A DNA stretch of 64,000 nucleotides, taken from contig JACIXH010000005.1 of assembly GCA_014360565.1 (NCBI GenBank), positions 1 to 64,000 on the forward strand. Reading direction: 5' to 3'. Below are positions 17,198 to 64,000 of the stretch, piece after piece. Each line of letters starts with the position of its first letter. Positions within the stretch are counted from its first letter, which is position 1. A model generated the notes under the pieces. That model saw only the letters and a list, made by a program, of their open reading frames with translations, was not told the DNA's origin and searched no databases. Source of the DNA: Nocardia sp. Its GTDB lineage: Bacteria; Actinomycetota; Actinomycetes; Mycobacteriales; Mycobacteriaceae. The position numbers were made by a program, and so were the translations under genes.

Positions 17198-17207
17198 CTA
17201 TGGCACG

Positions 17208-21793: not shown

Positions 21794-21968
21794 AAGCCCG
21801 GCAGTTCTCAACGCGTCAGTTGCCGGTGATCACATCTCGGCAGCCTCGACGCGTCCTTTCGATGGCAGTTGCCTGGTCGCGACCGAGTCGCGTTCGCATC
21901 ACGGCACCATGCCCATCCCATCGGCCAACAGCGACGGGGTTGTCTGTCGCTGGCATTAAGGATCAGAG

Positions 21969-23283: not shown

Positions 23284-23314
23284 AGGCTGGGAATCCGCAC
23301 CTCGACACGCCATA

Positions 23315-23331
23315 TACTACGATAGGTAGTA
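23315..23331. promoter_or_regulatory. BlaI-2-type operator, 17-mer
   Basis: TACTAC-GATAG-GTAGTA is a perfect palindrome with outer TACTA/TAGTA half-sites seven bases apart. It lies just upstream of the TlpA-like gene (ATG 23333 or 23348). The same 17-nt layout occurs at 55317-55333 and 56703-56719 around a BlaI-family gene 32 kb away. The right half overlaps the likely promoter or leader. Confidence 0.65.
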
Positions 23332-23347
23332 GATGGGGTGTCGCGTC

Positions 23348-23998: not shown

Positions 23999-24648
23999 TC
24001 GAGCGACAAGGCAGGCAAAGACTCCCACGATCCACCCCTACACCAGCTCGGCAACCCCGGTGGATTGCGGTGCTCGTCCTGTGTACATGCTTGGTGATCG
24101 CCGTGACGGGTTGTGCTTCCGGCTCGGATTCGGTCGCCACCGGTGGCGGCACGTTCGATTTCGTTTCCCCGGGCGGGCAGACCGACATCTTCTACGACCC
24201 GCCGGACAGTCGCGGGCAGATCGGGGCCCTGTCGGGGCCCGATCTCATGGCCGAGGACAAGACGGTGTCGGTGGCCGACTACGACGGCCAGGTGGTGGTG
24301 ATCAACCTGTGGGGTCAATGGTGTGGGCCTTGCCGAGCTGAAGCCGACGACCTCGAACGCGTATATGCGGCCACCAAGAACATGGGCGTGCAGTTCCTGG
24401 GGATAAACGTCCGCGATCCCCAGCGTGACAAAGCGCAGGATTTCGTCATTGACTACAAAATCGGTTATCCGTCGATTTATGACCCCTCAATGCGCACGCT
24501 GATCGCGCTCGGCGGCAGCTATCCCACCAGCGTCATCCCGTCCACCCTGATCCTGGACCGACAGCACCGTGTCGCGGCAGTGTTCCTGCGTGCCCTGCTG
24601 GCTGAGGATCTGCAACCGGTGATCGAACGTGTGGCGGCAGGACGATGA
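23995..24648 (+). CDS. TlpA-family lipoprotein (CcsX-like)
   Basis: Second TlpA-like thiol oxidoreductase, 217 residues. The signal peptide ends in a lipobox (AVTGCASG), so it is a lipoprotein. The thioredoxin domain carries WCGPC near residue 110 and cis-Pro SVIPSTL near 180. It resembles the M. tuberculosis Rv0526 protein encoded beside CcdA in the cytochrome c maturation cluster. ATGA overlaps join it to both neighbours. Here no ccsA/ccsB genes follow, so the role may be reduction of metal-binding Cys outside the cell. Confidence 0.85.
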
Positions 24649-25448
24649 CAGCGCTCGCCCAGGAGATCGGCACCAGCTTTCAGACCGCCGCCGCGACCGG
24701 GCCACTGCTGCTCGCGCTCGCCGCCTGCGTGCTCGCCGGGCTCGTTTCGTTCGCCTCGCCGTGTGTTGTGCCGCTGGTTCCCGGATACCTGTCCTACCTC
24801 GCTGGTGTATCCGGTGCCAGTAGCTCACCCGCGGGCGACGACGAGCCGGACTCAGCAGCAGACCGATGGCGCGTGGCCGGCGCGGCAGCGCTGTTCGTCG
24901 CCGGATTCACCGTCGTCTTCGTCCTGGCCACCGCGTCGGTATTCGGGGTGATCGGAGCGCTGCGGATCAACGAGGATCTGCTCCAACGCCTCGGTGGAGT
25001 GATCACGATCGTGATGGGGTTGGCGTTCGTCGGGCTCATCCCGGCGCTGCAGAAGGACACCCGCTTCGCCCCGTTGCGAATTTCCTCCCTGGCCGGAGCG
25101 CCTCTACTCGGAGGAGTGTTCGGGTTGGGCTGGACGCCGTGTCTGGGACCGACTCTCGCGGGGGTTCTCTCGGTCGCGGCCGGAACCGAGGGCACGACCG
25201 CCGCCCGGGGCGTGGCGCTGATCGTCGCCTACTGCGTCGGGCTCGGATCACCGTTCATCGTTCTCGGCTTCGGATCCGCGAAAGCGTTGCGTGGTGTCGG
25301 GTGGCTGCGCCGACATTCCCGGACCATCCAGGTCGCCGGTGGGGTCATGCTCATCCTGGTGGGCACTGCGCTGGTCAGCGGAGTGTGGGCCGTGTTCATC
25401 GGCTGGATGCGCAACGAATTCGTCACCTCGGTCGTGCTGCCGATATGA
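24645..25448 (+). CDS. ccdA: CcdA-type transmembrane thiol reductase
   Basis: Integral membrane protein of 267 residues with six or more TM helices that carries electrons from cytoplasmic thioredoxin to extracytoplasmic TlpA-like partners. The two redox Cys lie in [14 protein letters not shown] near residue 40 and [12 protein letters not shown] near 167. It follows two TlpA-like genes by an ATGA overlap, a complete reduction branch that complements the DsbA/VKOR oxidation branch upstream. Confidence 0.9.
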
Positions 25449-25518
25449 CGCAGCGGCTGCTCGGCGGAATTGTCATGATTCCAGCTCTGACGGCACTGTG
25501 TACTCGGCGGGGATGGGG

Positions 25519-25550
25519 TTGACCCTGTAGTCGGGTACCGGGGTGAGAAT
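25519..25550 (+). promoter_or_regulatory. MerR-type promoter, 20-bp spacer, leaderless
   Basis: TTGACC (25519-25524) and a -10-like GAGAAT (25545-25550) are separated by 20 bp, the over-long spacing typical of MerR-controlled promoters. The spacer holds an imperfect dyad (ACCCTGTA near 25522 and GTACCGGGGT near 25535). The -10 is followed six bases later by the ATG of merR at 25557, so the transcript is probably leaderless. Confidence 0.6.
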
Positions 25551-25556
25551 GTTGGT

Positions 25557-25958
25557 ATGCGTACAGGTGAGTTGGCCGTACAGGCCGGTGTGAACGCGCA
25601 GACCCTGCGGTACTACGAAGGTCGCGGCCTACTGGCGCTGCCGCTTCGATCCCCTGCGGGCTATCGCGACTATCCGGACGAGGCGGTCTCGGTGGTGCGG
25701 TTCGTCAAACGCGCCCAGGAGTTGGGGTTCAGCCTCGCGGAGATCAGGGAGTTACTGCACCTGGCAGACGGCGGCCCCGACGATTGTGGCACCGCACGCG
25801 TTGTGGCACAGGCGCGTATCGATCAACTGGCGCAACGGATCTCGGAGTTGCAGCGGATGCAACAGTCACTTGGTGAGCTGACTCGCACCTGTGAGATGCC
25901 GCGCGCGCAGCGCTCGTGCCCGATCCTTTCCACTCTGCATCAGGAGGACATTTCGTGA
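25557..25958 (+). CDS. merR: Mercury-responsive MerR regulator
   Basis: Mercury-sensing transcription activator/repressor, 133 residues. The MerR DNA-binding domain is at the N-terminus (GVNAQTLRYYEGRGLL). Three Cys at 77, 112 and 121 reproduce the 35- and 9-residue spacings of Hg(II)-binding Cys82/117/126 in Tn501 MerR, which is strong evidence for Hg rather than other metals. The stop overlaps merB by GTGA. It likely acts on its own long-spacer promoter. Confidence 0.88.
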   Translation: MRTGELAVQAGVNAQTLRYYEGRGLLALPLRSPAGYRDYPDEAVSVVRFVKRAQELGFSLAEIRELLHLADGGPDDCGTARVVAQARIDQLAQRISELQRMQQSLGELTRTCEMPRAQRSCPILSTLHQEDIS

Positions 25959-26950
25959 AGCTGGAAATCTTGCAGGTTACCGACTGTCCGAACGTGGCCG
26001 TGCTCGAACAACGCCTGCGCCAGGCCATCGCAGGCACGGGAATCGTTATCGACCTCGCCCACCGGATTATCAAGGACGCCGGTCAGGCCGCCGACGCCGG
26101 AATGACCGGCTCACCCACTCTTCTGGTCGAAGGCCGCGATCCGTTCGCGGTGCCGGGACAATCCCCGAGTATTTCGTGCCGGCTCTACCGCACCAACGAC
26201 GGCGGAATCGACGGCGCACCCTCGGTCGCGGCGATTCGCGAAGCATTGTCCATCACCACATCACCGGTCTCGGAGTCGGAGGACGGACCGGCGGCGTGCT
26301 GTCCCGGCCCCGTTCCGGAATCGGTAGCTGACTCATTGACTGCCTGGCGTGGCCGCGCCCAACCCGTCGACGCGTTCGAGAAGGCCTTTCATCAAGCCGT
26401 TCTGCGTGGCTTCGCCGCCACAGGTGGAGCGCCCACTGTCGACGAACTTGCCACCATCTTCGGCGCGGACGTCTCTGTGCCGCAGGTGCTACGCCGACTA
26501 TATGAGGGCGATGTGATCCGGCTCGACAGCTCGGGTGCGATCGCTGCGGCGTACCCGTTCTCTGCTGTGCCGACCGCACACCGAGTCCATATCGACGGTG
26601 GCGCGACCGTCTACGCCATGTGTGCCATCGACGCGTTGGGCATGTCCGCCATGCTCGGCGCCGACACCACGATCGAGACCACGGCCCCCGATACCGGGCA
26701 ACCCATCACCGTCGCCGTTCGTGACCAGCAGTTGACCGCGACCCCAACCACCGCCGTCGTGTTCGTCGGCGGGCAAGCCGCGCAGGGTCCTTCCGCCGAG
26801 ACCTGCTGCAGCTGTTTGAACTTCTTCCCCGACCGCGAGAGCAGCCAATCCTGGGCAGCCACTCATCCGGCTATCAGCGGCACCGTTGTAGACCTCACTG
26901 AGGCACATGACCTCGGCAACGCCATTTTCGGACAACTGCTACGTCCGTGA
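25955..26950 (+). CDS. merB: Organomercurial lyase with N-terminal extra domain
   Basis: Alkylmercury lyase that breaks the C-Hg bond. The catalytic core is in the C-terminal half: C223 and D226 in YAMCAIDALG correspond to Cys96/Asp99 of plasmid R831b MerB, and C284 in TCCSCLNFF corresponds to Cys159. At 331 residues the protein is about 120 longer than classical MerB because of a thioredoxin-like N-terminal domain (residues 1-100, TDCPNV) and a Cys-Cys linker (AACCPGP). The extra domain may receive Hg(II). GTG 25955 follows AGGAGG. No mercuric reductase gene is visible in this window. Confidence 0.9.
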   Translation: MKLEILQVTDCPNVAVLEQRLRQAIAGTGIVIDLAHRIIKDAGQAADAGMTGSPTLLVEGRDPFAVPGQSPSISCRLYRTNDGGIDGAPSVAAIREALSITTSPVSESEDGPAACCPGPVPESVADSLTAWRGRAQPVDAFEKAFHQAVLRGFAATGGAPTVDELATIFGADVSVPQVLRRLYEGDVIRLDSSGAIAAAYPFSAVPTAHRVHIDGGATVYAMCAIDALGMSAMLGADTTIETTAPDTGQPITVAVRDQQLTATPTTAVVFVGGQAAQGPSAETCCSCLNFFPDRESSQSWAATHPAISGTVVDLTEAHDLGNAIFGQLLRP

Positions 26951-36305: not shown

Positions 36306-36424
36306 TGATCCTGAGAAGTGACTTAGAGTTAGCTGGATTGTGACGTGGGCAACGGATCCCAACGTCGTTGAGACCCTATGGTTTCGGGGCGTGCCGCTCG
36401 TCCCCTCATCAGGTTCAGGCACAT

Positions 36425-36476
36425 GCCCGACGGGCACGATGGCTTCCCCCGGCAGGGAAACCATCGTCCGTCGGGC
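36425..36476 (+). promoter_or_regulatory. Long structured leader hairpin before SulP gene
   Basis: Outer arms GCCCGACGG (36425-36433) and CCGTCGGGC (36468-36476) enclose a second stem made of CGATGG (36437-36442) plus TTCCC (36444-36448) paired with GGGAA (36455-36459) plus CCATCG (36461-36466), closing on a six-base loop. Twenty base pairs in 52 nt, only small interruptions. It ends 96 nt before the SulP start. It may be a cis-regulatory RNA or attenuator; I do not recognise a known riboswitch. Confidence 0.6.
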
Positions 36477-36572
36477 CTCGCGGAAGCGATCGGTGCGTAC
36501 CGATCCGCACTGAGCTCCGACCGTCGACGGCAGACCGTCAACGGCCCAAACCGACCGGTGGAGGAAACAATC

Positions 36573-38843
36573 ATGACCCAGGCCGAGGCGCCCGAGAGCG
36601 CAGGCGACTCACAAGGATCACCATCCCCACTCGGCGAACGGCTTCGTGGCGTGCTCCGCCATGATCTGCCCGCCTCTGTGGTGGTGTTCCTGGTCGCGTT
36701 GCCGTTGTCTCTCGGTATCGCTATCGCCTCCGACGCGCCGATCATGGCCGGTTTGATCGCGGCGGTCATCGGCGGCATCGTTGCGGGTGCCGTGGGTGGC
36801 TCGCCGATGCTCGCCAGCGGTCCCGCTGCGGGCTTGACCGTCGTCGTCGCCGAGCTGGTCGCCGAGTTCGGGTGGCAGGTCACCTGCGCGATCACCGTCG
36901 CCGCGGGTGTGCTGCAGATCCTGTTCGGCCTCAGCCGTGTCGCGCGCGCCGCGTTGGCCATTTCCCCGGTGGTTGTCCACGCGATGCTCGCGGGCATCGG
37001 TATCACGATCGCGCTGCAGCAGGTACATGTTCTGCTCGGTGGAACGTCGCGAAGTTCGGTGTGGCAGAACCTCAGTCAGCTGCCCGCGCAGTTGACGCGC
37101 CTGCACTGGGGCGACGTGGTGATCGGCCTCATCGTCATCGTGACGCTGCTGTTCTGGAAGAAGGTGCCCGGCGCGCTGGGACGCGTTCCCGGGGCGCTGG
37201 TCGCGGTGGTCGCCGCGACGATCGTTTCGTTGGTGGCGCCGCTGGGTGTCGAGCGAATCGTGATGGACGGGTCGCTGTTCGACGCGATCACCCTGCCGAC
37301 GTTGCCCGATGGCAAGTGGCTCGCGGTAGCGACCGGCGTGTTGACCGTGGCGTTGATCGCGAGTGTGGAGAGCCTGCTCTCCGCGGTGGCGGTGGACAAG
37401 ATGCACTCCGGTTCGCGCACTGATCTGAACCGGGAGCTCGTCGGTCAGGGCACCGCGAATATCGCCTCCGGGATGCTCGGCGGGCTTCCGATCACCGGTG
37501 TCATCGTGCGTAGTGCGACCAATGTCGCCGCTGGTGCGAAGTCCAAGGCATCGACGATTCTGCACGGTGTGTGGGTTCTGCTCTTCTCGGTGCTGCTGGC
37601 CGGAGTCGTGCAACAGATTCCGAAGGCCGCACTCGCCGGACTACTGATCGTCATCGGCATCCAGCTGGTCAAACTCGCCCACATCAGGCTGGCGCACCGC
37701 ACCGGTGACTTGTGGGTTTACCTGATCACCGTGGCCGGGGTGATGTTCCTCAACCTGCTCGAAGGCGTCCTCGTCGGTCTGGTCGTCGCGATCGCGCTCG
37801 TCGTCTGGCGTGCCGCCCGCGCCGACATCCACGCAGAGCAGGTGGGCGACGTGGATTCGCGGCGCTGGAGAGTCGTCATCGAAGGAACCTGCAGCTTCCT
37901 TTCGCTGCCGAAGCTGTCGAGCGCGCTGGACTCCGTGCCCGCAGGTACCGATGTGACCGTTGAACTGACCGTCGACTTCATCGACCACGCGGCGACGGAG
38001 GTACTGCACGAATGGGAACGCCGCCACCGCGAAACCGGCGGTACCGTCCTCATCGACGAACTCGGCTCGGACACACTCTCGGCCACGGCCCTTGGCCCGC
38101 CGCAGCGGGGATCGTCAGCGCAGGCGCGGGGTTTGGAGCCGTGGAAGGCGTGGCAGAACACCGACACCGACTCTGCAGCGTTGCTGTCCGTTGGCGCGCT
38201 GCGGCCCATCCTCGACGGAATCTCGCGCTATCAACGCCGTCACGCACCCATGGTTCGCGCCCACCTCAATGACCTGCGCGACGGTCAGGCCCCGAATTCG
38301 CTGTTCCTGACCTGTGCCGATTCGCGTCTGGTACCCAACGTCATCACTCACAGCGGTCCCGGCGACCTGTTCACCGTTCGCAATGTCGGCAACCTGATAC
38401 CCGCCGATAGCGCCGACCCCTCAGCCGAGGCGGCATTGGCTTTCGCGGTGGAAGAGCTCGCGGTGTCTTCGGTGATCATCTGCGGCCACTCCGGTTGCGG
38501 CGCGATGGGTGCGCTGCTGGGCGACGCCACGGTGTCCCCGAGCATTCGTGGGTGGCTCGACCACGCCGAACCCAGTGTGCACGCCTACCTCACCGGGCAC
38601 CCGGTTGCTGCCGCTGCCGCGGCGGCCGGGTTCGATGCACGCGACCAGTTGAGTATGGTCAACGTCGCGATCCAGGTCGAGACCGCGCGCAGGCATCCGG
38701 TCGTAGCCGCCGCGGCAGCCACCGGCGAGGTCCATATCGCGGGCTTGTTCTTCGACATCGCGACCGCCACCGTGTGGCACGTCGGATCCGACACCGTCAC
38801 CGCACACCACGACGAACTCATCCCGGATGCCGCGCCCGTCTGA
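36573..38843 (+). CDS. SulP bicarbonate/anion transporter fused to carbonic anhydrase
   Basis: Fusion of 756 residues. The first 430 form a SulP (SLC26-like) transporter with ASVVVFLVALPLSLGIAIAS near residue 33 and about ten TM helices; a short STAS-like part follows. The last 190 residues are a beta-carbonic anhydrase with zinc ligands in LTCADSRLVP near 580 and ICGHSGCGAMG near 636. Such fusions (M. tuberculosis Rv3273 type) take up bicarbonate and interconvert it with CO2. ATG 36573 follows GGAGG. Beside BlaI-1, it is the only non-metal transporter here; a pH or CO2 role near proton-pumping genes is possible. Confidence 0.9.
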   Translation: MTQAEAPESAGDSQGSPSPLGERLRGVLRHDLPASVVVFLVALPLSLGIAIASDAPIMAGLIAAVIGGIVAGAVGGSPMLASGPAAGLTVVVAELVAEFGWQVTCAITVAAGVLQILFGLSRVARAALAISPVVVHAMLAGIGITIALQQVHVLLGGTSRSSVWQNLSQLPAQLTRLHWGDVVIGLIVIVTLLFWKKVPGALGRVPGALVAVVAATIVSLVAPLGVERIVMDGSLFDAITLPTLPDGKWLAVATGVLTVALIASVESLLSAVAVDKMHSGSRTDLNRELVGQGTANIASGMLGGLPITGVIVRSATNVAAGAKSKASTILHGVWVLLFSVLLAGVVQQIPKAALAGLLIVIGIQLVKLAHIRLAHRTGDLWVYLITVAGVMFLNLLEGVLVGLVVAIALVVWRAARADIHAEQVGDVDSRRWRVVIEGTCSFLSLPKLSSALDSVPAGTDVTVELTVDFIDHAATEVLHEWERRHRETGGTVLIDELGSDTLSATALGPPQRGSSAQARGLEPWKAWQNTDTDSAALLSVGALRPILDGISRYQRRHAPMVRAHLNDLRDGQAPNSLFLTCADSRLVPNVITHSGPGDLFTVRNVGNLIPADSADPSAEAALAFAVEELAVSSVIICGHSGCGAMGALLGDATVSPSIRGWLDHAEPSVHAYLTGHPVAAAAAAAGFDARDQLSMVNVAIQVETARRHPVVAAAAATGEVHIAGLFFDIATATVWHVGSDTVTAHHDELIPDAAPV

Positions 38844-48754: not shown

Positions 48755-51010
48755 CTACTGCGCGGTCGACTTGAACCGGCGAAGGCGCAGGCTGTTGCTC
48801 ACCACGAAGACCGAGCTGAACGCCATCGCGGCGCCGGCCAGCATCGGGTTGAGCAGGCCCGCCATGGCCAGCGGGATCGCGGCCACGTTGTAGGCGAAGG
48901 CCCAGAACAGATTGCCCTTGATCGTGGCCAGGGTGCGTCGCGACAGGCGGATCGCGTCGGCGGCGGCGCGCAGGTCGCCGCGGACGAGGGTGAGGTCGCT
49001 GGCCTCGATGGCGACGTCGGTGCCGGTGCCCATCGACAGGCCCAGGTCGGCCTGGGCCAGGGCGGCCGCGTCGTTGACGCCGTCACCGACCATGGCGACG
49101 ACCTTGCCCTCGGCCTGCAGCCGCTTCACCGTGTCGACCTTGTCCTGCGGCAGCACCTCGGCGATGACCTCGTCGATGCCGACTTCGTCGCCGATGGTGC
49201 GGGCGGCACGGGCATTGTCACCGGTGAGCAGGATCGGCGTCAGGCCGAGCTCGCGGAACTGCGAGATGGCTTGGGCCGAGGTCGGCTTCACCGCATCGGC
49301 GACAACCAGCACACCGCGCGCCTTACCGTCCCAGCCGATCGCGACCGCGGTCTTGCCCGCCGACTCCGCTTCCGCCAGCACGGTTTCCAGCTTCTCGTCG
49401 AGCGGCTGTGACCAGTCGGCCAGCAGTCGCGCCCGGCCCACGATCACCGCGTGCCCGTCGACCACGCCCTGCACGCCGAGGCCCTCGACATTGGCGAAGC
49501 CCTCCACCGGCAGCAGTGTGCCGAACTCGTCGCGTGCGCCCTTGGCGATCGCCTGCGCGATCGGGTGTTCCGACGAATCCTCCAGCGCACCAGCGAGTTC
49601 CAGCACCTTGTTACCCAGTTCGCCGTCGGCGGGGATCACGTCGAGCAGCGTCATCTTGCCGGTGGTGACGGTGCCGGTCTTGTCCAGCACGATGGTGTCG
49701 ACCTTGCGGGTCGATTCCAGCACTTCGGGTCCCTTGATCAGGATGCCCAGCTGCGCGCCGCGTCCGGTGCCGACCATCAATGCGGTCGGCGTGGCCAGGC
49801 CGAGGGCGCACGGGCAGGCGATGATCAGCACCGCCACGCCCGCGGTGAAGGCCGCGGCGATGGAACCGCCTGTGCCGAGCCAGAATCCGAGCGTGGCGAC
49901 GGCCAGTGCGATGACGATCGGGACGAAGATGCCGGAGATCTTGTCGGCCAGCCGCTGTGCCTGCGCCTTGCCGGTCTGCGCGTCCTCGACGAGCTGTGCC
50001 ATCTGGGCGAGTTGGGTGTCGGCTCCGATTCTGGTGGCGCGCACGACGAGTCGGCCGCCGACGTTCACGGTGGCCCCGGTGACAGCGTCGTCGACACCGA
50101 CCTCCACCGGCACGGACTCGCCGGTGAGCATGGACGCGTCGACCGCCGACGTGCCCTCGGTGATCACACCGTCGGTGGCGATCTTCTCGCCCGGCCGCAC
50201 GATGAACTCGTCACCGACGACCAGCTGCTCCACCGGAATTCGCGTCTCGACGCCGTCGCGCAGGACCGCGACGTCCTTCGCGCCGAGCTCGAGCAGTGCC
50301 TTCAGTGCCGCCCCCGCACGTCGCTTGGACCGTGCTTCGAAGTACCGTCCCGCCAGGATGAACGTGGTCACACCGGCCGCGGCTTCGAGGTAGATGCTGC
50401 CCGTGCCGTCCATCCGCGCGATGGTGAATTCGAACGGGTGCTTCATCCCCGGCGTGCCCGCCGTGCCCCAGAAAAGGGCGTACAGCGACCAGCCGAACGC
50501 TGCCAGGGTGCCCATCGACACCAGCGTGTCCATGGTGGCGGTGCCGTGCTTCAGGTTGGTCCACGCTGCCTTGTGGAAGGGCAGCGCGCCCCAGATCACG
50601 ACCGGCGCGGCCAACGTGAGCGAGAGCCACTGCCAGTTGGTGAACTGCAGTGCGGGGATCATCGCCATCGCGATCACCGGGACGGTCAGCACCAGCGAGA
50701 CCAGCAGGCGGGTGCGCAGCGTTGCGGTGGGGTCCGCTTCGGCGGCGGGCTCGTCGGTGGTCTCCGGCTTCTTCGGCGCGGGCAGCGCCGCGGTGTAGCC
50801 GGCCTGCTCGACGGTGGAGATCAGTTCCTCGGGGGAGACGTCACCGGTGAAGTCGACCCGCGCCTTCTCGGTCGCGTAGTTGACCGTGGCGGTGACCCCG
50901 TCGAGCTTGTTGAGCTTCTTCTCGATCCGGTTCGCGCAGGAAGCGCACGTCATGCCACCGATCACCAGTTCTACCTGGCCGGTGCCCGGTGGGTGTGTCA
51001 CGGTGGTCAT
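48755..51010 (-). CDS. copA: Copper-exporting P1B-1 ATPase
   Basis: Cu(I) efflux ATPase, 751 residues. One N-terminal HMA domain with GMTCASC near residue 19, eight TM helices, actuator TGES near 290, the copper-path motif [11 protein letters not shown] near 400, phosphorylation site DKTGTVT near 445, the SEHP loop near 485 and [10 protein letters not shown] near 640. These residues are those of CopA/CtpA/CtpV-type pumps. No CsoR-type palindrome is visible in its 130-bp upstream gap, so it may be read through from the genes to its right. A strong hairpin follows its stop. Confidence 0.93.
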
Positions 51011-53647: not shown

Positions 53648-53869
53648 TCAGTTCTGGACGAGCTCGTAGCCGAGGTTTTCGACGGTGTCCTGGATCAGCG
53701 CGTCGTCGATCGCGCCTGCGCCGATGACGGTCATCCGGCCGGTGGCGAGTTCGATGTCGACACCGTTGATGCCGTCGAGCTTGCCGATCTCGTTCTTGAC
53801 CTTGCCGACGCAGCTGCCACAGGACATGCCCGAAACGACGTAGGTGCTGGTGCTGTTGTTGGTGCTCAT
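53648..53869 (-). CDS. copZ: CopZ-type copper chaperone
   Basis: Cytoplasmic heavy-metal-associated domain protein, 73 residues, with the Cu(I) site GMSCGSCVGKV near residue 14 and the usual ferredoxin-like pattern. It hands copper to CopA or to a repressor. Paired CsoR-type operators lie 70-120 bp upstream, shared with the divergent FAD reductase gene, so it belongs to the CsoR-type regulon. Confidence 0.92.
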   Translation of the reverse strand: MSTNNSTSTYVVSGMSCGSCVGKVKNEIGKLDGINGVDIELATGRMTVIGAGAIDDALIQDTVENLGYELVQN

Positions 53870-56215: not shown

Positions 56216-56590
56216 ATGGGTCATCGATTTGGAGAACTGGAAGCGGTTGTGATGGATCGCGTCTGGTCGGCCGACGACACCATCACCGTCCGGCAGGTCT
56301 ACGACGACCTACTGCGTGACCGCGAGATCGCGTACACGACCGTCATGACGACTATGGACAACCTGCACCGCAAAGGTTGGCTCGAGCGGGAACGGCTCGG
56401 CAAGGCCTACACCTACTGGGCCACGCTGACGCGTGAGCAGTACAGCGCGAAGCTGATGCGCGATGCACTCGGTGACGGTGGCCGGTCCGATTTGGTGCTG
56501 GCGCATTTCATTGATCAGATCACCGAAGACGAATCGAACGCGCTGCGAACTGTGTTGCGGGGATTGACTTCCCGACGGAAGAAGGACTGA
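56216..56590 (+). CDS. BlaI-family repressor (BlaI-2)
   Basis: Winged-helix repressor, 124 residues, with the recognition region REIAYTTVMTTMDNLHRKGW near residue 38 and a C-terminal dimerisation helix. Unlike BlaI-1 it has no M56 protease partner next to it. Three perfect TACTA-N7-TAGTA palindromes and one degenerate copy lie before its own gene, both flanking genes and the TlpA-CcdA genes at 23.3 kb. How it is released is unknown; the protease at 34860 could act on it too. Confidence 0.88.
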   Translation: MGHRFGELEAVVMDRVWSADDTITVRQVYDDLLRDREIAYTTVMTTMDNLHRKGWLERERLGKAYTYWATLTREQYSAKLMRDALGDGGRSDLVLAHFIDQITEDESNALRTVLRGLTSRRKKD

Positions 56591-56702: not shown

Positions 56703-56719
56703 TACTATTTGTCTTAGTA
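56703..56719. promoter_or_regulatory. BlaI-2-type operator before CPVC gene
   Basis: TACTAT-TTGTC-TTAGTA, same 17-mer layout; symmetry extends one base each side (CTACTA/TAGTAG). It lies 29 bp before GTG 56749. Confidence 0.75.
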
Positions 56720-56748
56720 GTTTGCCGGGTGGCGGAGGAGATGCAGTC

Positions 56749-57225
56749 GTGACGATCTCGCAGTGGCCGATTCAGCGGTGGTTGGTGGCGCTGGCCGTGG
56801 GGACGGTGGTCGCTGCGGTGGTGGGCGTTCCCACCGGGGTGATTCAGACGCCGTTCTATACGCGGATGACTCCGGTGCTGTGGTGGAACTACCCGATCTG
56901 GCTTCTCACCGCAGTACTCAGCGGTCTCGTCGCGGCGACCTACGTACGAAGTCGGATGCCGTCGACCACGCGCTCGGCGGGGCTGTTCGCTACGCTCGCA
57001 TCGGCGTTCGCTGTCGGTTGTCCGGTGTGCAACAAGCTGATTGTGGCACTGCTGGGAGTCAGTGGCGCGCTCAGCATCTGGGCGCCTCTGCAGCCGGTTA
57101 TCGCGGTGGCGTCGCTGTCGCTGCTGGTATGGGCGCTGCGTCGCAGACTCATGGGCGAGCGCGCGTGCCTGGCACCCGCTCCGGCGGACATGCGCGCTGT
57201 TGAAGCGGATCCTCTGGGTCGGTAA
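56749..57225 (+). CDS. Membrane protein with CPVC motif
   Basis: 158 residues, four TM helices. The third helix starts with VGCPVCNKLIVALLGVSGAL near residue 93, a Cys pair facing a membrane edge, which may be redox-active or bind metal. I know similar unnamed proteins from actinobacteria but no function. GTG 56749 follows GGAGGAG by eight bases. It is preceded by a BlaI-2-type operator and followed 75 bp later by the Nuo-type cluster, so it may share its promoter. Confidence 0.7.
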   Translation: MTISQWPIQRWLVALAVGTVVAAVVGVPTGVIQTPFYTRMTPVLWWNYPIWLLTAVLSGLVAATYVRSRMPSTTRSAGLFATLASAFAVGCPVCNKLIVALLGVSGALSIWAPLQPVIAVASLSLLVWALRRRLMGERACLAPAPADMRAVEADPLGR

Positions 57226-57300: not shown

Positions 57301-57642
57301 ATGCTCAATCTGCTCATAGTCCTTGCCGTGGTGGCGGCCTCGACGGCGTTGGCATACGCGGCGGCCCGCGTGGGGCAATCGGGACCGGCTGCGAGGGATG
57401 TCGCGCCGTTCTTGTCGGGCGCGGAGGCCACCGAGCACGCTGTGTCGCGTTATCACGTGCGCTGGTACACGATCACGATGATCTTCCTGGCCTTCGACAT
57501 GGAAATGGCGTTCATGTATCCGTGGTCTGTCGTCGTCGCCGATCTCGGGGCCATGGCGGTCGCCGAGATGTTCGGATTTCTGGCGGTGCTGATGATCGCG
57601 GTCCTCTATGCCTGGCGCGAGGGAGCGCTGCGATGGGTCTGA
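57301..57642 (+). CDS. nuoA: NuoA-like Complex I membrane subunit
   Basis: 113 residues, three TM helices. The conserved loop-helix FLAFDMEMAFMYPW near residue 62 keeps the Asp and Glu (DMEM in place of the usual DVEA) of NuoA. GGAGGTGA lies about five bases before ATG 57301. It overlaps the next gene by ten bases. It opens a cluster with H, J, K, L and M but without C, D, E, F, G and I. Confidence 0.85.
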   Translation: MLNLLIVLAVVAASTALAYAAARVGQSGPAARDVAPFLSGAEATEHAVSRYHVRWYTITMIFLAFDMEMAFMYPWSVVVADLGAMAVAEMFGFLAVLMIAVLYAWREGALRWV

Positions 57643-58958
57643 ACTCCTGGTTGCGTGGGCGAGTTGCCGTTGCGCCGTTCGTGGTGACCGCCCCTGGTGG
57701 TACCTCAGTACGCGTGGCGGTTGAACGCGAGATCCGAGAACACGGTCGGTTGCAGGTGGGCAGTCCAGCCGCGGCCGACCTGCTGGTCGTCGCCGGACCG
57801 GCCGACGAGGAATTCGACTCCTACGTCACGCGGGTCTTCGACAGCATGCCGCTGCCCCGAGATCGCGCGTGGATTACCGAACCCAATGCTGCCGCAACAG
57901 AAATCGGTGCCGCGATCGTTCGTCTGCGCGCTGGAGTAGCTGCTGTCTCACCACCGTCGCACCCCGAATCCGTAGACGGCCCACACCAACAGCACCACAG
58001 GACGAGTGGCCACGACGCTGAGCCGGCGCCGGTGCGCGAGCAGGCTGCGGTGCACGAGCACACGCAGCACACCGCAGGGGATGAGCACATGGGGCACGCC
58101 GCAGAGCATGAGCACATCGGGCATGCTGCGGAACACCAGCACATCGGGCACGCCGCGGAACACGAGCACATGGGGCACGCCGCGGGCGGTGCGGCGCACG
58201 GTGGGCACAACCACGATATGGGCATGATGATGCCGGGTGGGTTGGCGATGGCTGATCGGGCGGATGATCGGGACGGTCTGAAGCTCGACGTGCTGACGGT
58301 TCCGTTGGGGCCGGTGCTCGCCTGGTGGCCCGCAGGCCTGACCGCTGTCACACGATGGCAGGGCGATATCGTCTGCGACGCAACGGTTTCAGTTCTCGCG
58401 GCACCATCGGGCACCGTGCCCTTCTGGTTGAAGCCGTGGTTACACCCAGGGCAGGTCGACGCAAACTTACGGGGACGATGGCGAGCGGCACGGGCGTTGG
58501 ACTCGGCCTCGACGCTGCTGACGCTGGCGGGATGGTCGGATGCGGCGACGACCGCGCGCCGGTTGCGAGACGAATTGCTGGCCGGTGAGCTGTCCGGGGC
58601 CGGTGAGGTGCGGCTGCGCCGTTGGACACGTCGGGTCGCGGGCTCGTGGGTACTGAGGTCGTCGCTGCGTGATGTCGGACGCATCGCCGAGGGATCGGAC
58701 GTACCGGCGGGGTTGGTCGGCGACGCGCATGACCGGCTGCTGCGCTGGATCGCCGAGACGGACCTGGCGCGCCGACACGAGGAAAAGACCACAGGCGGAT
58801 TCATCGATGCCCAGATCACTCGATGCCAGTGGATCGTCGACACGTTGCCGACACTGCTTGCCGGAACGGAACTAGCGGAGGCCCGCTTGACCGTGGCCAG
58901 CCTCGATCCCGACATCGAGGTGCTGACCGCATCAGTTGCGGAGGCGGCGCATGGTTGA
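57633..58958 (+). CDS. NuoB-like protein with histidine-repeat domain
   Basis: 441 residues, a fusion I have not seen described. Residues 1-105 resemble NuoB (VGSPAAADLLVVAGPADE, then FDSMPLPRDRAWI) but contain no Cys, so cannot hold cluster N2. Residues 115-205 are His-rich and include four 9-residue repeats of the type EHEHIGHAA (149-184), followed by HGGHNHDMGMMMPGG. Residues 210-441 form an unfamiliar domain starting KLDVLTVPLGPVLAWWPAG. It sits between nuoA and nuoH with overlaps on both sides, where NuoB/C/D would be expected. A metal-binding adaptor in place of the electron-input module is the inference. Confidence 0.6.
   Translation: MGLNSWLRGRVAVAPFVVTAPGGTSVRVAVEREIREHGRLQVGSPAAADLLVVAGPADEEFDSYVTRVFDSMPLPRDRAWITEPNAAATEIGAAIVRLRAGVAAVSPPSHPESVDGPHQQHHRTSGHDAEPAPVREQAAVHEHTQHTAGDEHMGHAAEHEHIGHAAEHQHIGHAAEHEHMGHAAGGAAHGGHNHDMGMMMPGGLAMADRADDRDGLKLDVLTVPLGPVLAWWPAGLTAVTRWQGDIVCDATVSVLAAPSGTVPFWLKPWLHPGQVDANLRGRWRAARALDSASTLLTLAGWSDAATTARRLRDELLAGELSGAGEVRLRRWTRRVAGSWVLRSSLRDVGRIAEGSDVPAGLVGDAHDRLLRWIAETDLARRHEEKTTGGFIDAQITRCQWIVDTLPTLLAGTELAEARLTVASLDPDIEVLTASVAEAAHG
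58077..58184 (+). repeat. Four 27-bp His-rich coding repeats
   Basis: Units at 58077-58103 (degenerate), 58104-58130, 58131-58157 and 58158-58184 encode x-x-E/Q-H-M/I-G-H-A-A. They differ by a few bases, mainly at E/Q and M/I codons, so they are diverged tandem duplications. They supply most of the His of the NuoB-like protein. Confidence 0.85.
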
Positions 58959-59874
58959 GTCGGCGCCCTGGTGGCAAGCCGCGTTCTTGCCGGTCGTCGT
59001 GGTGGTCCTCGCCTTCGCCGTCGAGGTCTGCCAGGGGGTGCTCAACGCACGAGTCGCTGGAGCTTCCGCGCCGGTCGCCGCGTTCGCACCGGCGCGGGCT
59101 GTCGCGCTACTACTCACCCAGCAGCGCCGCCGGATCGTCGGTGCTGATGTATTGCTCTGGCGTTGTGCGGGATTGATACTGCTGGTCGGCGGTGTGCTCA
59201 CAGCGGCGCTCGTGCCGGTCGGTGATCGCGTCGTGCTGGGCGGTAGCGTGTCGCTCGCGTGGTTCAACGCGGTCGAGATCCTCTCCTGGGCGGCGGTGTG
59301 GTTGGCCGGGTGGGGCGCGGACTCGGCTTTCTCGCTCGTGGGTGGGTATCGCTTCGTCGCGCAGGGCCTGGCTTACGAGTTGCCGCATATGTTCGCGTTG
59401 ATCTGCGCCGCGGTGGCCGCCGAGTCACTCGAGATCTCCGACATCGTTGCCGCACAGCAGGACCGGTGGTTCGTTGTGATCATGCCGGTGGCTTTCGTGA
59501 TCTATCTGCTCTCGGTGCCGGCGATGTCGTTCACCGCGCCGTTCGATGCTCCGGTGGGCGCGGATATCGCTGGTGGAGTGTTCGCCGAGGTGTCGGGAGT
59601 AGATCGCCTGGTCCTGATCGTGGGTCGCCGGGTGCTGTTCGTGGCAGCGGCTGCGATGGCGGTGCCGTTGTTTCTGGGCGGTGGTGCCGGTCCGTGGTTG
59701 CCGGCCTGGCTGTGGTCGCTGGTGAAGACACTGGCCGTGCTGGGGGCGCTGATCTGGCTCGGGCGGAGCTGGCCGACGATCAGGATGTCGCGCTATATGG
59801 AGGTCGCCTGGATCATTTTGCTGCCGGTGATTCTGCTGCAGGCGTTGGTGGTGTCGATCGTGATGATTCGCTGA
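58951..59874 (+). CDS. nuoH: NuoH-like Complex I membrane subunit
   Basis: 307 residues, eight TM helices. The NuoH signatures are altered: FVAQGLAYELPHMFALI near residue 136 and MSFTAPFDAPVGADIAGG near 190, where classical NuoH has PFDLPEAE; the following AEVSGVDRLVLIV replaces the usual TEYSG loop. The quinone-cavity acidic residues are thus partly lost, which argues against ordinary quinone reduction. ATG 58951 has GGAGG upstream and overlaps the His-rich gene by eight bases. Confidence 0.8.
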   Translation: MVESAPWWQAAFLPVVVVVLAFAVEVCQGVLNARVAGASAPVAAFAPARAVALLLTQQRRRIVGADVLLWRCAGLILLVGGVLTAALVPVGDRVVLGGSVSLAWFNAVEILSWAAVWLAGWGADSAFSLVGGYRFVAQGLAYELPHMFALICAAVAAESLEISDIVAAQQDRWFVVIMPVAFVIYLLSVPAMSFTAPFDAPVGADIAGGVFAEVSGVDRLVLIVGRRVLFVAAAAMAVPLFLGGGAGPWLPAWLWSLVKTLAVLGALIWLGRSWPTIRMSRYMEVAWIILLPVILLQALVVSIVMIR

Positions 59875-59887
59875 GAAGGAGCCGACG

Positions 59888-60451
59888 ATGTGGGCGCAGG
59901 TGGTCTTCTGGGTGTGTGCGGTCGGGGCTGTCGCGACCGGGCTCGCGGTCTTTCGTGTGGATTCGATGGCGCGTGCGACCTTCGCGTTGCTGCTGTCGTT
60001 CTGCTTTGCCGCGGGCACCGTGTTTCTGGTCGACCTGGACTACCTCGGAGTCCTCGTCGTGCTGATGATGATCATGGAGATGGTCATCATGGTGGTGTTC
60101 ATGATCATGTACATGATGAACCCGGCAGGGCTGATGCCGATGTCGATGGTGCACAACCAGAAAGCGGCGCTGGGCATCTCGGTGGTGGTCTTTCTCGGGT
60201 TGGCGAGCGTCGCGCTGCTGGTCGACTGGCCGGCACGGGAGCAACCTCGGCCCGCTGACCCGACGGTTCAGCTGGGTGAGTCCATCATGGGCTCGAAGAT
60301 GCTGGTGATGATCGTTGTCGGGCTGGTGCTGTTCGCCACGATCGTGTCGACGGTGGTGCTGGCAACCCATCGGGGCCGCTACGACCGCTACGGCGACCGG
60401 CTCGACCAGCGCATTCCCGACGATCCCGTCAAGGGCGGAGTGGGCCGATGA
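59888..60451 (+). CDS. nuoJ: NuoJ-like Complex I membrane subunit
   Basis: 187 residues, five TM helices. The conserved helix 3 region reads VFLVDLDYLGVLVVLMMIME, followed by an unusually Met-rich stretch (MVIMVVFMIMYMM). NuoJ links the quinone end of Complex I to the antiporter-like subunits. GAAGGAG precedes ATG 59888, and the stop overlaps nuoK by ATGA. The Met-rich helix is odd and could interact with soft metals, but chance is possible. Confidence 0.82.
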   Translation: MWAQVVFWVCAVGAVATGLAVFRVDSMARATFALLLSFCFAAGTVFLVDLDYLGVLVVLMMIMEMVIMVVFMIMYMMNPAGLMPMSMVHNQKAALGISVVVFLGLASVALLVDWPAREQPRPADPTVQLGESIMGSKMLVMIVVGLVLFATIVSTVVLATHRGRYDRYGDRLDQRIPDDPVKGGVGR

Positions 60452-60750
60452 ATCTGCCGGAATATCTGCTGCTCGCTGCGGCCTTGTTCAGCATCGGGCT
60501 TTACGGAGTGCTGTCTCAGCAGTCCATCGTGATGATCATGATGGGCGTGGAACTGATGATCAACGCGGTCATCGTCGCCGCGGCGGCGTTCTGGTATTTC
60601 GCCTGGCCATCCGCCGACCCCCAAGTGCTCGTGCTGGTCGCGATGACTGCCATGGCGGTGGAGATGGCGGCCGGGTTCGCCGTCACTACGGCCATTTTCC
60701 GCGCTCGCGACATCGACATGGTCGATATGGCCGACGACCTGAAGGGCTGA
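60448..60750 (+). CDS. nuoK: NuoK-like Complex I membrane subunit
   Basis: 100 residues, three TM helices. Both membrane glutamates essential for proton transfer in NuoK are kept: MMGVELMINAV near residue 35 and AVEMAAGFAV near 71. This indicates a working proton path. ATG overlaps the nuoJ stop (ATGA) and nuoL follows after four bases. Confidence 0.9.
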   Translation: MNLPEYLLLAAALFSIGLYGVLSQQSIVMIMMGVELMINAVIVAAAAFWYFAWPSADPQVLVLVAMTAMAVEMAAGFAVTTAIFRARDIDMVDMADDLKG

Positions 60751-60754
60751 GGCG

Positions 60755-62611
60755 ATGCTGTGGTCACTGATCGCGCTGCCGGGTCTGGTCGGCGCGGCCC
60801 TGCTGGTGTGCGGCCGCCGTGTCGACCACGTCGCGCCGATGCTCGGCGTCACGGTCGCGGCGGTAAGCACGGTGCTGGCCGTGCTCACCGCCGTCGAACG
60901 GCCAAGTGGGTCGGCTCCGCTGCTGGCAGGGATACCGTTCGCGGTTGGGGTGGACGGGCTGTCGGCGGTGATGATCGTCACCGTCGCCGCGGTGACCACC
61001 GCGGTGCTGGTGTTCGCGACCGGTGATCTGGGTGCCGACCAACCACGTGCCCGGTTCTACGGTCTCATGCTGGTCTTCGCCGCGGCCATGCTCACCACGG
61101 TGGTGGCGCAGAACATCGTCACGTTGCTGATGGCGTGGGAGATCATGGGCGCCGCGTCCTACGCGCTGATCGGTTTTCATTGGCACGACGACTATCGTGT
61201 GTCCTCCGGCCTGGTCGCTTTCCTGACCACCCGCACCGGCGATGTCGGTCTCTATCTCGCCGCCGGTGCCCTGTTGGCAGGCGGAGACGTCACTCTCGCA
61301 CTGGGTTCCGCCGCCGGGGTCGAGGGCGGATGGCGCGACGTCGTGGCCGCCGGGGTGCTGCTGGCCGCACTGGGCAAATCCGCACAACTACCGTTCAGCT
61401 TCTGGCTCTCCCGCGCGATGTCCGGCCCCAGTCCGGTCTCGGCGTTGTTGCACTCCGCCACGATGGTCGCCGCGGGGGCGTACCTGCTCCTTCGGATGCA
61501 CCCGCTGCTCGAGTCCACCTCGTGGGCGGGTCCGGCTACGGCATGGATCGGAGTCGCCACCGCGATCGTGCTCGGTGCCGTTGCGGTATGCCAGGCCGAC
61601 TTGAAACAACTGCTCGCCGCGTCTACGTGCGCTCAAGTTGGCTTCATCGTCGTTGCTGCCGGTGTCGGTGGAGTTGCGGCGGGTACAGGACAACTCGTCG
61701 CCCACGCCGGCACGAAGAGTCTGCTGTTCCTCGGTGCCGGTGCCTGGCTCTCGGCGCTGGGAACCAAACAGCTCACGGGTCTGCGTGGAGTGGCGCGTAC
61801 CTATCCCATCGTCGGCCTGACCTTCACCATCGGTGCCCTCAGCCTGGCGGGCGTGCCCCCGTTTGCGCTGTGGCCGACCAAAGACGCCGTACTCGCCGCG
61901 GTCCGATCGGATTCGGGCGCGTTGTACCTGGCCGGCATGGTCGCCGCCGTGCTCAGCGCGGTGTACGCGGGTCGTGCACTCGTGCTCGTGTGGTCCCGGC
62001 CGATCGCCGCCACCGATAGCTTCCGCGACACCGAGGAGGTCGGAACTCGTCGGGTGAATGTCAGCGAACGGTTGTCGCTGGTGGCGCTGGCTGGGGTCAC
62101 CCTGGCCGGGGGAGCCGCCGTGCTGCCCTCTGTGCGTGACAGATTCGCCGACATCGTCGGCGGGGGAGCGATGGTCGAAGCCACATGGTGGGAACTGGGG
62201 ATGTCAGGGCTTATTGCGGTGTTGACCGTGCTGGTCGTGCGCGCGGTGATTCGTCGTCGCGGCGACCTTCCCGCGCCGACGGCGGCTGCCGACTGGTTCG
62301 GTCTGGAGAAGGCAGCGCACTACGCGGTGGTCGTGCCGACGCTCACTGTGTCGCGATGGCTGGCGGATTTCGACGACCGGGTGCTCAACCGCGGCGTATA
62401 TGCCACGGCCACCACAACTCTGGCGATCTCTCACGATCTCGATCAGCGCGTGGAGAAGCCACTTGACGCGGCGGTGCGCGATACCGCCGCCGCGGCACGC
62501 GATGTGGGGCGATGGGCACGCCGTCCGGAAACAGGCCAGGTGCACCAGTACTACGCCCAGGCGGTGGTAGGTCTGCTGCTCCTCGCGGTGATGGTGTTGA
62601 CCTTGCGATGA
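60755..62611 (+). CDS. nuoL: NuoL-like antiporter subunit
   Basis: 618 residues, about 15 TM helices. The proton-channel residues are present: Glu in LLMAWEIMGAASYALIGFHW near residue 127, Lys in ALGKSAQLPFSFWL near 207 and His in ALLHSATMVAAGAY near 230. The C-terminal third carries a long amphipathic segment (residues 510-590) that may be the lateral helix, ending in one TM helix. The Mrp/NuoL family moves protons, sometimes Na+ or K+. Translationally coupled to nuoK. Confidence 0.9.
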   Translation: MLWSLIALPGLVGAALLVCGRRVDHVAPMLGVTVAAVSTVLAVLTAVERPSGSAPLLAGIPFAVGVDGLSAVMIVTVAAVTTAVLVFATGDLGADQPRARFYGLMLVFAAAMLTTVVAQNIVTLLMAWEIMGAASYALIGFHWHDDYRVSSGLVAFLTTRTGDVGLYLAAGALLAGGDVTLALGSAAGVEGGWRDVVAAGVLLAALGKSAQLPFSFWLSRAMSGPSPVSALLHSATMVAAGAYLLLRMHPLLESTSWAGPATAWIGVATAIVLGAVAVCQADLKQLLAASTCAQVGFIVVAAGVGGVAAGTGQLVAHAGTKSLLFLGAGAWLSALGTKQLTGLRGVARTYPIVGLTFTIGALSLAGVPPFALWPTKDAVLAAVRSDSGALYLAGMVAAVLSAVYAGRALVLVWSRPIAATDSFRDTEEVGTRRVNVSERLSLVALAGVTLAGGAAVLPSVRDRFADIVGGGAMVEATWWELGMSGLIAVLTVLVVRAVIRRRGDLPAPTAAADWFGLEKAAHYAVVVPTLTVSRWLADFDDRVLNRGVYATATTTLAISHDLDQRVEKPLDAAVRDTAAAARDVGRWARRPETGQVHQYYAQAVVGLLLLAVMVLTLR

Positions 62612-62660
62612 AACACGGTGTCACAGTGACGAATTTGCCGCGAACAGAGGTGAGGTAAGC

Positions 62661-64000
62661 GTGCTCAGCATCCTGGTGTTCCTGCCGATGATCGTGGCGG
62701 CTGTGCTGCTGACCATGCCACGCATCGGCGACCGCGTGTCGCGATGGACGTGGGTCGTGGTCAGCGCCGTCGAGGTCGTGCAGGTCGTGGGGTTGTGGAT
62801 CGGCTATCGCCGGACCCCGCCCGTCGACGGCGGATTCGCCTACGAGGAGCGTCGTTCCTGGATTCCTACAGTCGGTTCCAGCTATCACGTCGGCGTCGAT
62901 GGATTCAGCTTGCCGCTGGTCGCGTTGACCACCGTGCTGTTCCTGGCCTGCGCGATCTACTCGTTGCGCGAGACCCGCCGGGTTCGGTTCTACGCCGCAC
63001 TGTTCCTGTTCCTCGAAAGCGTCTGCCTCGGCGTATTCGTATCCCTCGATCTGGTGCTGTTCTTCGTCTTCTTCGACCTCTCGATCGTCGGAATGTACTT
63101 CGTGATCAACGGCTGGGGGCACGGCCAGGCGCGGCGGGCGGCGTTGCAGTTCTTCCTCTACACCTTCATCGGCTCGCTGGCCCTGCTGCTCGGTTTCATC
63201 GTCCTGTACCTCGCGGCAGATCCGCACACCTTCGACATGGTCGAGTTGACCGAGGCAAACCCATTGGCAGGCAATACCGCTCGCGGTGCGGTCGCGCTCG
63301 CTGCCATTGTGATCGGCCTCGCTGTCAAGACACCCACGGTGCCCTTCCACACGTGGCTCCCGCCCGCGCACACCGAGGCACCGGCCGCCGGATCGGCGAT
63401 CCTGGCCGGCGTGCTGCTCAAACTGGGCGCCTACGGTTTCGTGCGGATCGCGATCCCGATGCTGCCCGACCAGTGGCGGCGCTACGCCCTGGTGATCGTG
63501 ATCGTCGGCGTGATCAGCGTCCTCTACGGCGCGCTGGTCGCCCTCGCACAGACCAACTTCAAACGCATGATCGCCTATACATCCGTCAACCACATGGGCT
63601 ATATCGTCCTTGCCGTCGGTGCGGCCGGGCTGGTCGCCGACAACACCGAACAAGCGCGCACGTTGGCGATCACGGGCGCGGTGACTCAAATGGTCAGCCA
63701 CGGGCTCATCACGGGTGCGCTGTTTCTGCTCGCGGGGGTGCTCTACGAACGTCGACAGACCTACAACATCGACGCCTACGGCGGTTTGGCCGGGCAGGCA
63801 CCAGTTTTCGCCGCCGTCACCGCCGCTGCGATATTCGCCTCGCTCGGCTTGCCGGGCTTCTCCGGGTTCATCGCCGAGTTCCAGATCTTCACGGGATCGT
63901 TCGCGCCCGCACCGGTGTATACAGCCTTGTCGGTTCTGGGCATTCTGATCACCGCGGCTCTGCTGCTGCGCGCCTACCAACGGATGTTCCTCGGCGAGTC
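62661..64000 (+). CDS. nuoM: NuoM-like antiporter subunit, 3' end outside
   Basis: The first 446 residues are in the window; the frame stays open to the right edge. GTG 62661 follows GAGGT. Channel residues: Lys in AVKTPTVPFHTWLPPAHTEA near residue 217 and LLKLGAYGF near 250 are kept. The key membrane acid, Glu in most NuoM (FFE/FWE), is Asp139 here (FFVFFDLSIVGMYF). NuoN would be expected beyond the window. Confidence 0.9.
   Translation, partial: MLSILVFLPMIVAAVLLTMPRIGDRVSRWTWVVVSAVEVVQVVGLWIGYRRTPPVDGGFAYEERRSWIPTVGSSYHVGVDGFSLPLVALTTVLFLACAIYSLRETRRVRFYAALFLFLESVCLGVFVSLDLVLFFVFFDLSIVGMYFVINGWGHGQARRAALQFFLYTFIGSLALLLGFIVLYLAADPHTFDMVELTEANPLAGNTARGAVALAAIVIGLAVKTPTVPFHTWLPPAHTEAPAAGSAILAGVLLKLGAYGFVRIAIPMLPDQWRRYALVIVIVGVISVLYGALVALAQTNFKRMIAYTSVNHMGYIVLAVGAAGLVADNTEQARTLAITGAVTQMVSHGLITGALFLLAGVLYERRQTYNIDAYGGLAGQAPVFAAVTAAAIFASLGLPGFSGFIAEFQIFTGSFAPAPVYTALSVLGILITAALLLRAYQRMFLGE

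Follow-up and report, generated by a model that had tools for sequence, protein, structure and literature searches.

A complex-I-derived gene set without electron-input genes in Nocardia, and its proposed role in copper homeostasis

What can the membrane arm of respiratory complex I do in a gene set that holds no genes for electron input? The question is raised by an operon near the right edge of a 64,000-nucleotide stretch of Nocardia sp. DNA (assembly GCA_014360565.1, contig JACIXH010000005.1, positions 1 to 64,000; hereafter the window), which encodes relatives of the complex I subunits NuoA, NuoH, NuoJ, NuoK, NuoL and NuoM together with a protein of 441 residues, here called B'D'. A preliminary description, made from the sequence alone, had read it as a proton-coupled machine that lacks the genes for electron input and is possibly tied to metals. 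The present analysis supports that view and narrows the idea of metal movement to copper, a link found at many loci and not at every one; for the pH control that was also suggested, no sign came up in an analysis not aimed at it. The system is a real, conserved and mobile relative of complex I that is misnamed in annotation. A copper function of the complex (A, B'D', H, J, K, L, M and N) is quite probable. From sequence comparisons, it is best explained as a redox-less membrane complex in copper homeostasis, most likely a Cu(I) transporter driven by protons, and this reading is given a probability of roughly one half.

The genes for A, H, J, K, L and M were matched by Pfam at E values from 3e-67 to 7e-13 (Table 1), and they are consecutive, with the 441-residue protein in the place of B, C and D, just as first described. 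Two parts of that description needed revision. The set does not end with M, as NuoN follows right of the window, and among the subunits listed as missing (C, D, E, F, G and I), D is present as the D' part of the fusion, whereas C, E, F, G and I are indeed absent to the contig end. The possibility that nuoC to nuoG and nuoI follow right of position 64,000 was examined, and none was found between the window's right edge and the contig end at 70366, a region that holds beyond NuoN a multicopper oxidase gene on the opposite strand and BlaI- and M56-type genes. A canonical nuo set with C, D, E, F and G sits elsewhere in the same genome (contig C223), and its NuoB has the cluster-ligand cysteines, unlike B' of the window. 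Within that canonical set, NuoH and NuoI form a single open frame (L003 16923-18713). For the H gene of the window, an ATG start at 58951 is likelier than 58936, judged by the length of relatives.

The 441-residue protein, which is 100% identical to its counterpart in Nocardia ignorata NBRC 108230, matched no family in a single-sequence Pfam scan. A family profile built from 58 relatives matched NuoB chains of the PDB with a best E of 7e-11 (positions 33-85) and, more weakly and over its C-terminal part, NuoD-type chains (MbhL, NdhH, NuoCD and Nqo4; E 4e-5 to 3e-4). When the 58 members were scanned individually against Pfam (E up to 0.1), PF00346 (NuoD) was found in 13 (best 4e-17) and PF01058 (NuoB) in 10 (best 2e-4). 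An AlphaFold model of the window protein, built on an alignment of six rows (predicted local distance difference test score, pLDDT, 68), gave no Foldseek match at E 0.001 or better; the top rows are NuoD-type or hydrogenase large-subunit chains, going by their chain names. Re-alignment of the model (residues 217-433) to mycobacterial complex I NuoD gave a Z score of 15.8 and a root-mean-square deviation of 3.4 over 216 residues, a score to be read with the tool's warning that mostly helical models may reach about 14 without kinship. Since NuoB' is absent from those top Foldseek rows, the identity of B' rests on the sequence profiles. Together, the NuoB profile matches and the NuoD profile and fold matches identify the protein as a fusion of NuoB', a His-rich linker and NuoD'. 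A NuoB-like protein alone is ruled out by the recovery of NuoD' through both profile and fold.

Neither half of the fusion appears equipped for redox chemistry. In the window protein, B' is free of cysteine, as had been noticed at first sight, and the whole protein has only two. The pair of adjacent cysteines (CC) required among the ligands of cluster N2 was found within the first 150 residues of B' in 0 of 63 non-redundant relatives. At the quinone-site histidine of NuoD (GPxHP), 47 of 58 members, the window protein included, have Leu, and a single one (L138) has His. The NiFe-binding cysteine pairs of the Group 4 [NiFe] hydrogenase large subunit are likewise missing from the window protein.

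The gene set is conserved well beyond this genome. Of 73 loci examined, 68 carry all eight genes; the other five (L032, L107, L138 and L139, which lie at contig ends, and L152, a truncated second copy) were excluded from the count of gene order. The order A-B'D'-H-J-K-L-M-N on a single strand was found in 68/68 complete loci, all in Actinomycetota. The preliminary description had left room for homologues that always sit in complete nuo operons and had proposed checking whether C to G are lacking in relatives. None of the relatives retrieved lies in a complete operon: across the 73 loci, some of which are cut by contig ends, no open reading frame had its best match (E 1e-6) in the canonical form of B, C, D, E, F, G or I. 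Removal of 10 near-duplicates at 75% identity left 63 non-redundant loci. In Nocardia, clear relatives occur in 12 of 148 genomes, the source genome included, with three more rows at E 1e-4 to 7e-4 set aside. An order-level scan gave a best E below 1e-15 in 52 of 298 genomes, and a phylum-level scan gave a match below E 1e-5 that spans the D' part in at least 27 of 396; in both scans, matches confined to about positions 41-79 of the profile were taken as ordinary NuoB and left uncounted. All 32 genomes tested have a second, higher-scoring NuoJ (PF00499, best E 5e-30 or better) from a complete or partial nuo set. A quick tree of NuoM unites the clade with six plasmid copies in a single branch (SH-like approximate likelihood ratio test, 92), apart from canonical and other partial sets, with the exception of L158 and L171, badly extracted canonical long branches; the partial set L162 groups with canonical rows. 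Several of these genomes carry further nuo sets for which neither E nor F nor G was found (L162, L176, L178-L181, L187, L189, L191, L193 and L194), and those sets do not have the methionine ladder described below.

Conserved residues were compared with those of 25-26 distinct canonical nuo operons, one per carrier genome; the genome's own canonical operon is present in two overlapping pieces and was counted twice for H, J and K, so that the distinct rows for these number 26, 25 and 26. The proton path through K, L and M retains its residues, in line with the preliminary description, which had seen most of them. The retained residues are E35 and E72 in K, D66 and E68 in A, E129, K208, H233, K321, K376 and D377 in L, and D/E139, K223, K254 and E406 in M. 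In N, K254 and K396 are found in 68/68 loci and K224 in 60/68. NuoH is changed throughout the clade, and the altered quinone loop reported for the window is thus a shared trait: canonical E225, R228, D232, E235 and E237 are lost, and canonical E260 is Arg in 69/72. We take these acids and bases to line the quinone chamber.

The residues gained by the clade lie mainly in J, K and A. J has acquired a glutamate (E64, 71/71 in the clade) where canonical rows have Ala (25/25), and it carries near-invariant M27, M60, M61, M65, M68, M72, M76, M77, M85, M87 and M138 as well as H89 (70-71/71), with M61 standing where the canonical subunit has Tyr (25/25 distinct rows). The clade-specific M29, M31 and M69 of K are present in 71/71, and M69, M72 and H52 of A in 72/72, although M69 is also Met in 7/25 canonical rows. 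Outside J, K and A, M312 of NuoM is the sole clade-specific near-invariant methionine (69/69 versus 2/26 canonical), and none was found in L or N. The share of methionine in the clade exceeds the canonical share in J (9.6% versus 3.8%), K (9.1% versus 5.3%) and A (5.5% versus 3.0%) and falls below it in H, L, M and N, a pattern that argues against an effect of base composition. Between positions 58 and 90 of J, clade members have 9-13 methionines (61 loci), canonical rows 2-5 (26 rows, the genome's own operon counted twice) and other partial sets 1-2 (12 sets). On an ideal helix, a geometry drawn on paper, M61, M65, M68, M72 and M76 of J fall within 80-160 degrees, that is, in an 80-degree stripe over 16 residues, with E64 at 40 degrees. 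With helix positions assigned by homology to NuoJ, NuoK and NuoA, conserved Met and His sites are present in membrane helices, as expected of a Cu(I) transporter.

The genes next to the operon point to the same metal. When the flank genes of the 73 loci were clustered without preselected families, the commonest clusters were a P-type metal ATPase of the CopA type (24 loci), DUF305 (19), multicopper oxidase (13), a CsoR-type repressor (13), a DUF326 cysteine protein (12), a heavy-metal-associated (HMA) chaperone (11) and ArsR (11); the next, a methyltransferase-like cluster, reached 8. With the first six clusters taken as copper families and a distance limit of 6 kb, at least one copper-family gene was found at 36 of 63 non-redundant loci and two or more kinds at 25 of 63. 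Among 20 random 20-kb regions of carrier genomes, one had a single copper gene and none had two kinds (Fisher p 2e-5 for at least one gene, 2e-4 for two or more kinds). The families were picked from recurrent flank clusters, and these p values are therefore descriptive only.

The setting in a metal-resistance island behind a BlaI-type promoter, as first proposed for the window, is borne out by a BlaI-type repressor gene, a palindromic operator and nearby CopA- and CopZ-like genes (Table 1). The arms of the operator recur right before the multicopper oxidase gene, at contig position 67300 (L002:3300); TACTA-N7-TAGTA with up to one mismatch has four matches in the window versus 0.03 expected, and similar palindromic sites are present in near relatives. 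Because BlaI-type genes flank both the operon and the multicopper oxidase gene, which share the operator, the two are likely to be under joint BlaI-type control.

The system is also found on plasmids and in a second phylum. Searched with tblastn, PLSDB yielded 12 records with the fusion and 19 with NuoJ. Among 17 plasmid regions, of which four are fragmentary (L221, L225, L226 and L227) and one is interrupted (L224), 11 have the set in the vicinity of copper or heavy-metal genes (L215-L220, L222, L229-L231 and L227, the last by DUF305 and ArsR alone). Carriers with the same gene order in Proteobacteria are plasmids of three species: Halomonas sp. KO116, Roseivivax marinus (a single strain with two such plasmids) and Acuticoccus sp. 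The proteobacterial copies adjoin genes for CueR, a metal P-ATPase, multicopper oxidase or CopB and retain the ladder of J, and their His-rich stretch lies on the tail of NuoJ, not within B'D'. Of individual plasmids, that of Rhodococcus pyridinivorans (L223) has the eight-gene set between IS3 transposases, as if self-mobile; that of Pseudarthrobacter defluvii (L224) has an IS3 transposase gene between nuoH and a short hypothetical gene after nuoA; and in Halomonas sp. KO116 (L216) the ergothioneine genes egtB and egtD stand directly after the operon.

Further metal-binding pieces occur elsewhere. In the phylum sample, seven loci of one family (f18) have a heavy-metal-binding domain (HMBD) motif in the B'D' linker, and PF19335 was found in 4 of 58 scanned fusion members (best 8e-23). 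At least one add-on (a His-rich B'D', the HMBD motif or a His tail on J) is present at 37 of 63 loci, and such different pieces at different places of the same complex would argue for a metal role. The histidine repeat, which the preliminary description had named, did not hold up as the key feature: the His count of B'D' proteins ranges from 4 to 54, and the repeat is one of several add-ons that many members do not have.

How such a complex might work can be sketched from complex I itself. L, M and N would act as antiporter modules, and their largely intact Lys/Glu paths could move protons. The link by which complex I couples quinone chemistry to proton pumping would now couple proton flow to metal transfer. 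B'D', no longer redox-active, would cap NuoH on the cytoplasmic side and would bring a metal-binding segment in many lineages, while Cu(I) would travel along the methionine ladder in the third transmembrane helix (TM3) of J, with the methionines of K and A beside the old acids of the E-channel. The path would be located where the quinone site of complex I sends its coupling signal into the arm. CsoR- and CueR-type regulators respond to copper excess, which makes an outward direction (export or detoxification) likelier than uptake. A fuller history is possible, though tentative: complex I may have become a proton-driven Cu(I) pump in which the quinone module turned into a metal cap, the E-channel into a Met-lined copper path and the antiporter arm, run in reverse, into the engine, the whole spreading as a mobile resistance module of Actinomycetota and Proteobacteria.

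Several observations weigh against proton-driven Cu(I) transport. Subunit N has Leu in 64/68 at a position, taken here for the TM5 Glu, where 26/26 canonical rows have an acid, and the three antiporter modules are therefore not uniformly standard. The AlphaFold2 model of NuoJ (pLDDT 53) was too poor to show a metal path and was left unused, and the methionines could serve gating or sensing instead of passage. No copper-family gene lies within 6 kb at 27 of 63 loci, no copper or heavy-metal gene was found in the stretch at 6 of 17 plasmid regions (L221, L223-L226 and L228), and no metal-binding add-on was found at 26 of 63 loci by the thresholds used. P-ATPases specific for metals other than copper may be among the matches of the CopA profile.

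The alternative that survives best is a copper-gated valve or sensor, in which only H+ or Na+ would be moved and Cu(I) at the Met/His sites would open or close the complex, adjusting the proton gradient or giving a signal under copper stress. The copper context and the Met sites fit it equally, the antiporter residues of L and M are retained, and the variable metal-binding segments resemble regulatory add-ons. Nevertheless, a methionine stripe of the extent seen in TM3 of J exceeds the need of one gating site, and the Met positions are retained in loci without add-ons, which leaves the valve rather unlikely.

Part of the system has been published under another interpretation. A partial NDH-1 operon (nuoAHJKLMN), reported in Salinispora, Streptomyces and Kocuria, has been described, in the parts of the papers available, as a marine adaptation set acting as a proton or sodium pump (PMC3314556, PMC4018334, PMC6002675, PMC6676996, PMC8622039). 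The two systems are likened by gene order (nuoA-hypothetical-H-J-K-L-M-N), not by sequence identity, and a hypothetical protein between nuoA and nuoH is remarked upon in an available passage (PMC6676996; the order also in PMC3314556). In the passages at hand, the published reading is a seawater pump, and neither a copper role nor a B'-D' fusion nor a methionine ladder is named. The word copper is absent from three of the papers (PMC3314556, PMC4018334, PMC8622039). In a fourth, as far as its available text goes, it concerns copD, seawater copper and Kocuria marina from a copper mine, which is tabled as a carrier of the nuo set (PMC6002675), and in the accessible part of a fifth, the nuo operon is said to be common to a Streptomyces isolated from copper-rich mine fluids and to strains of the rhizosphere, which is explained by osmotic stress (PMC6676996). 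Two published carriers therefore derive from copper sites, and a copper role is not proposed in the passages available from those papers. No paper proposing a copper function for the operon was found in a literature search that ran mostly at the level of titles and the starts of abstracts and covered few subscription journals. Within the literature searched, the gene order is already known, and the copper-machine reading, the assignment of the hypothetical protein as B'D' and the methionine ladder appear to be new. A pump for marine or osmotic adaptation, proposed from genome presence and absence, is quite improbable for the present system: without electron-input genes, a gradient could not be built as in complex I, the carriers found here include soil and sputum isolates, those papers themselves contain rhizosphere and copper-site carriers in the parts seen (PMC6676996, PMC6002675), and copper genes are frequent neighbours.

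A proton pump that is still redox-driven, with B'D' fed electrons by a partner protein or with copper as the redox carrier, is very improbable. The residual D' fold would suit it, as would an FAD/NAD oxidoreductase upstream in some Nocardia, but that oxidoreductase occurs at only 4 of 73 loci, and the absent CC motif, the near-complete loss of the quinone histidine and the lost acids of NuoH all speak against electron transfer. A decaying, functionless remnant of a second complex I, suggested by some interrupted or fragmentary copies, is dismissed, as eight genes kept in order in every complete locus across the phylum, with new residues invariant, reject decay.

The proposed proton-driven copper complex can be set beside four known systems. 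Complex I (NDH-1, NuoA-N) has homologues of A, H, J, K, L, M and N, its NuoB and NuoD are homologous to B' and D', and both have the same proton-path residues in K, L and M; the window system differs in having no C, E, F, G or I, no N2 ligands and no quinone His, in its altered NuoH, in its fused B and D, in its Met-rich J, K and A and in its frequent location in copper islands. The Mrp Na+/H+ antiporter makes redox-free use of complex-I-type antiporter modules without relatives of NuoH, NuoB or NuoD. The window system shares the redox-free modules and is no MrpA-G set, since NuoH and NuoD' are present. In Group 4 membrane hydrogenases and formate hydrogenlyase (PDB 6cfw, 7z0s), the large subunit resembles D' and the small subunit B', and their Fe-S and NiFe cysteines are absent from the window protein. 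Ctr1 and CusA are Met-rich copper transporters with methionine ladders in membrane helices; the ladder is shared and the folds are unrelated, the ladder of the window lying in a complex I arm.

The coupling of the end reaction to proton movement along the arm of complex I is a long-standing open question, and a relative with the arm and the B-D-H junction but no redox chemistry would allow coupling to be studied without quinone. If copper is moved, the subunits now annotated as NADH-quinone oxidoreductase would constitute a new class of metal transporter, there would be reason to re-examine the published marine-adaptation reading, and the annotation of plasmids carried by soil, sea and clinical strains would be corrected.

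Table 1. Features of the operon and its surroundings, in window coordinates unless marked as contig positions
Feature	Position	Strand	Basis or remark
Copper-type P-ATPase (CopA-like), same island	48755..51010	-	PF00122, PF00403
CopZ-like metal chaperone, same island	53648..53869	-	Near-identical relatives in flank cluster with PF00403 representative
BlaI/MecI/CopY-type repressor gene	56216..56590	+	PF03965 E 5e-25
Palindromic operator TACTA-N7-TAGTA, just upstream of operon	56703..56719	.	
Small membrane protein with CPVC motif, first gene past operator, start uncertain	56722..57225	+	No Pfam family
NuoA-like subunit, Met/His-enriched (M67, M69, M72, H52)	57301..57642	+	PF00507 E 3e-26
NuoB'-His-rich linker-NuoD' fusion, 441 residues, without cluster cysteines or quinone histidine	57633..58958	+	Profiles and fold
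NuoH-like subunit, quinone chamber eroded	58936..59874	+	PF00146 E 1e-41
NuoJ-like subunit, methionine ladder in TM3 and new Glu E64	59888..60451	+	PF00499 E 7e-13
NuoK-like subunit; E35, E72 retained; M29, M31, M69, M73 added	60448..60750	+	PF00420 E 7e-17
NuoL-like antiporter subunit, proton-path residues retained	60755..62611	+	PF00361 E 2e-49
NuoM-like antiporter subunit, runs on to contig 64154	62661..64000	+	PF00361 E 3e-67
NuoN-like subunit, right of window	contig 64135-65607		Directly after NuoM

The small membrane protein with the CPVC motif has a relative in the upstream flank of 6 of 73 loci. Two more TACTA-N7-TAGTA palindromes stand at window positions 23315 and 55317, and the BlaI-type regulon may hold further genes. 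Farther to the left, a multi-metal island (7176-26950) carries a P-type metal ATPase (7176-9194), a cadmium transporter (PF03596, 11332-11919) and an organomercurial lyase MerB domain (PF03243, 25916-26947), and a fusion encoded at 36378-38840 joins a SulP-type permease (PF00916) with a carbonic anhydrase domain (PF00484).

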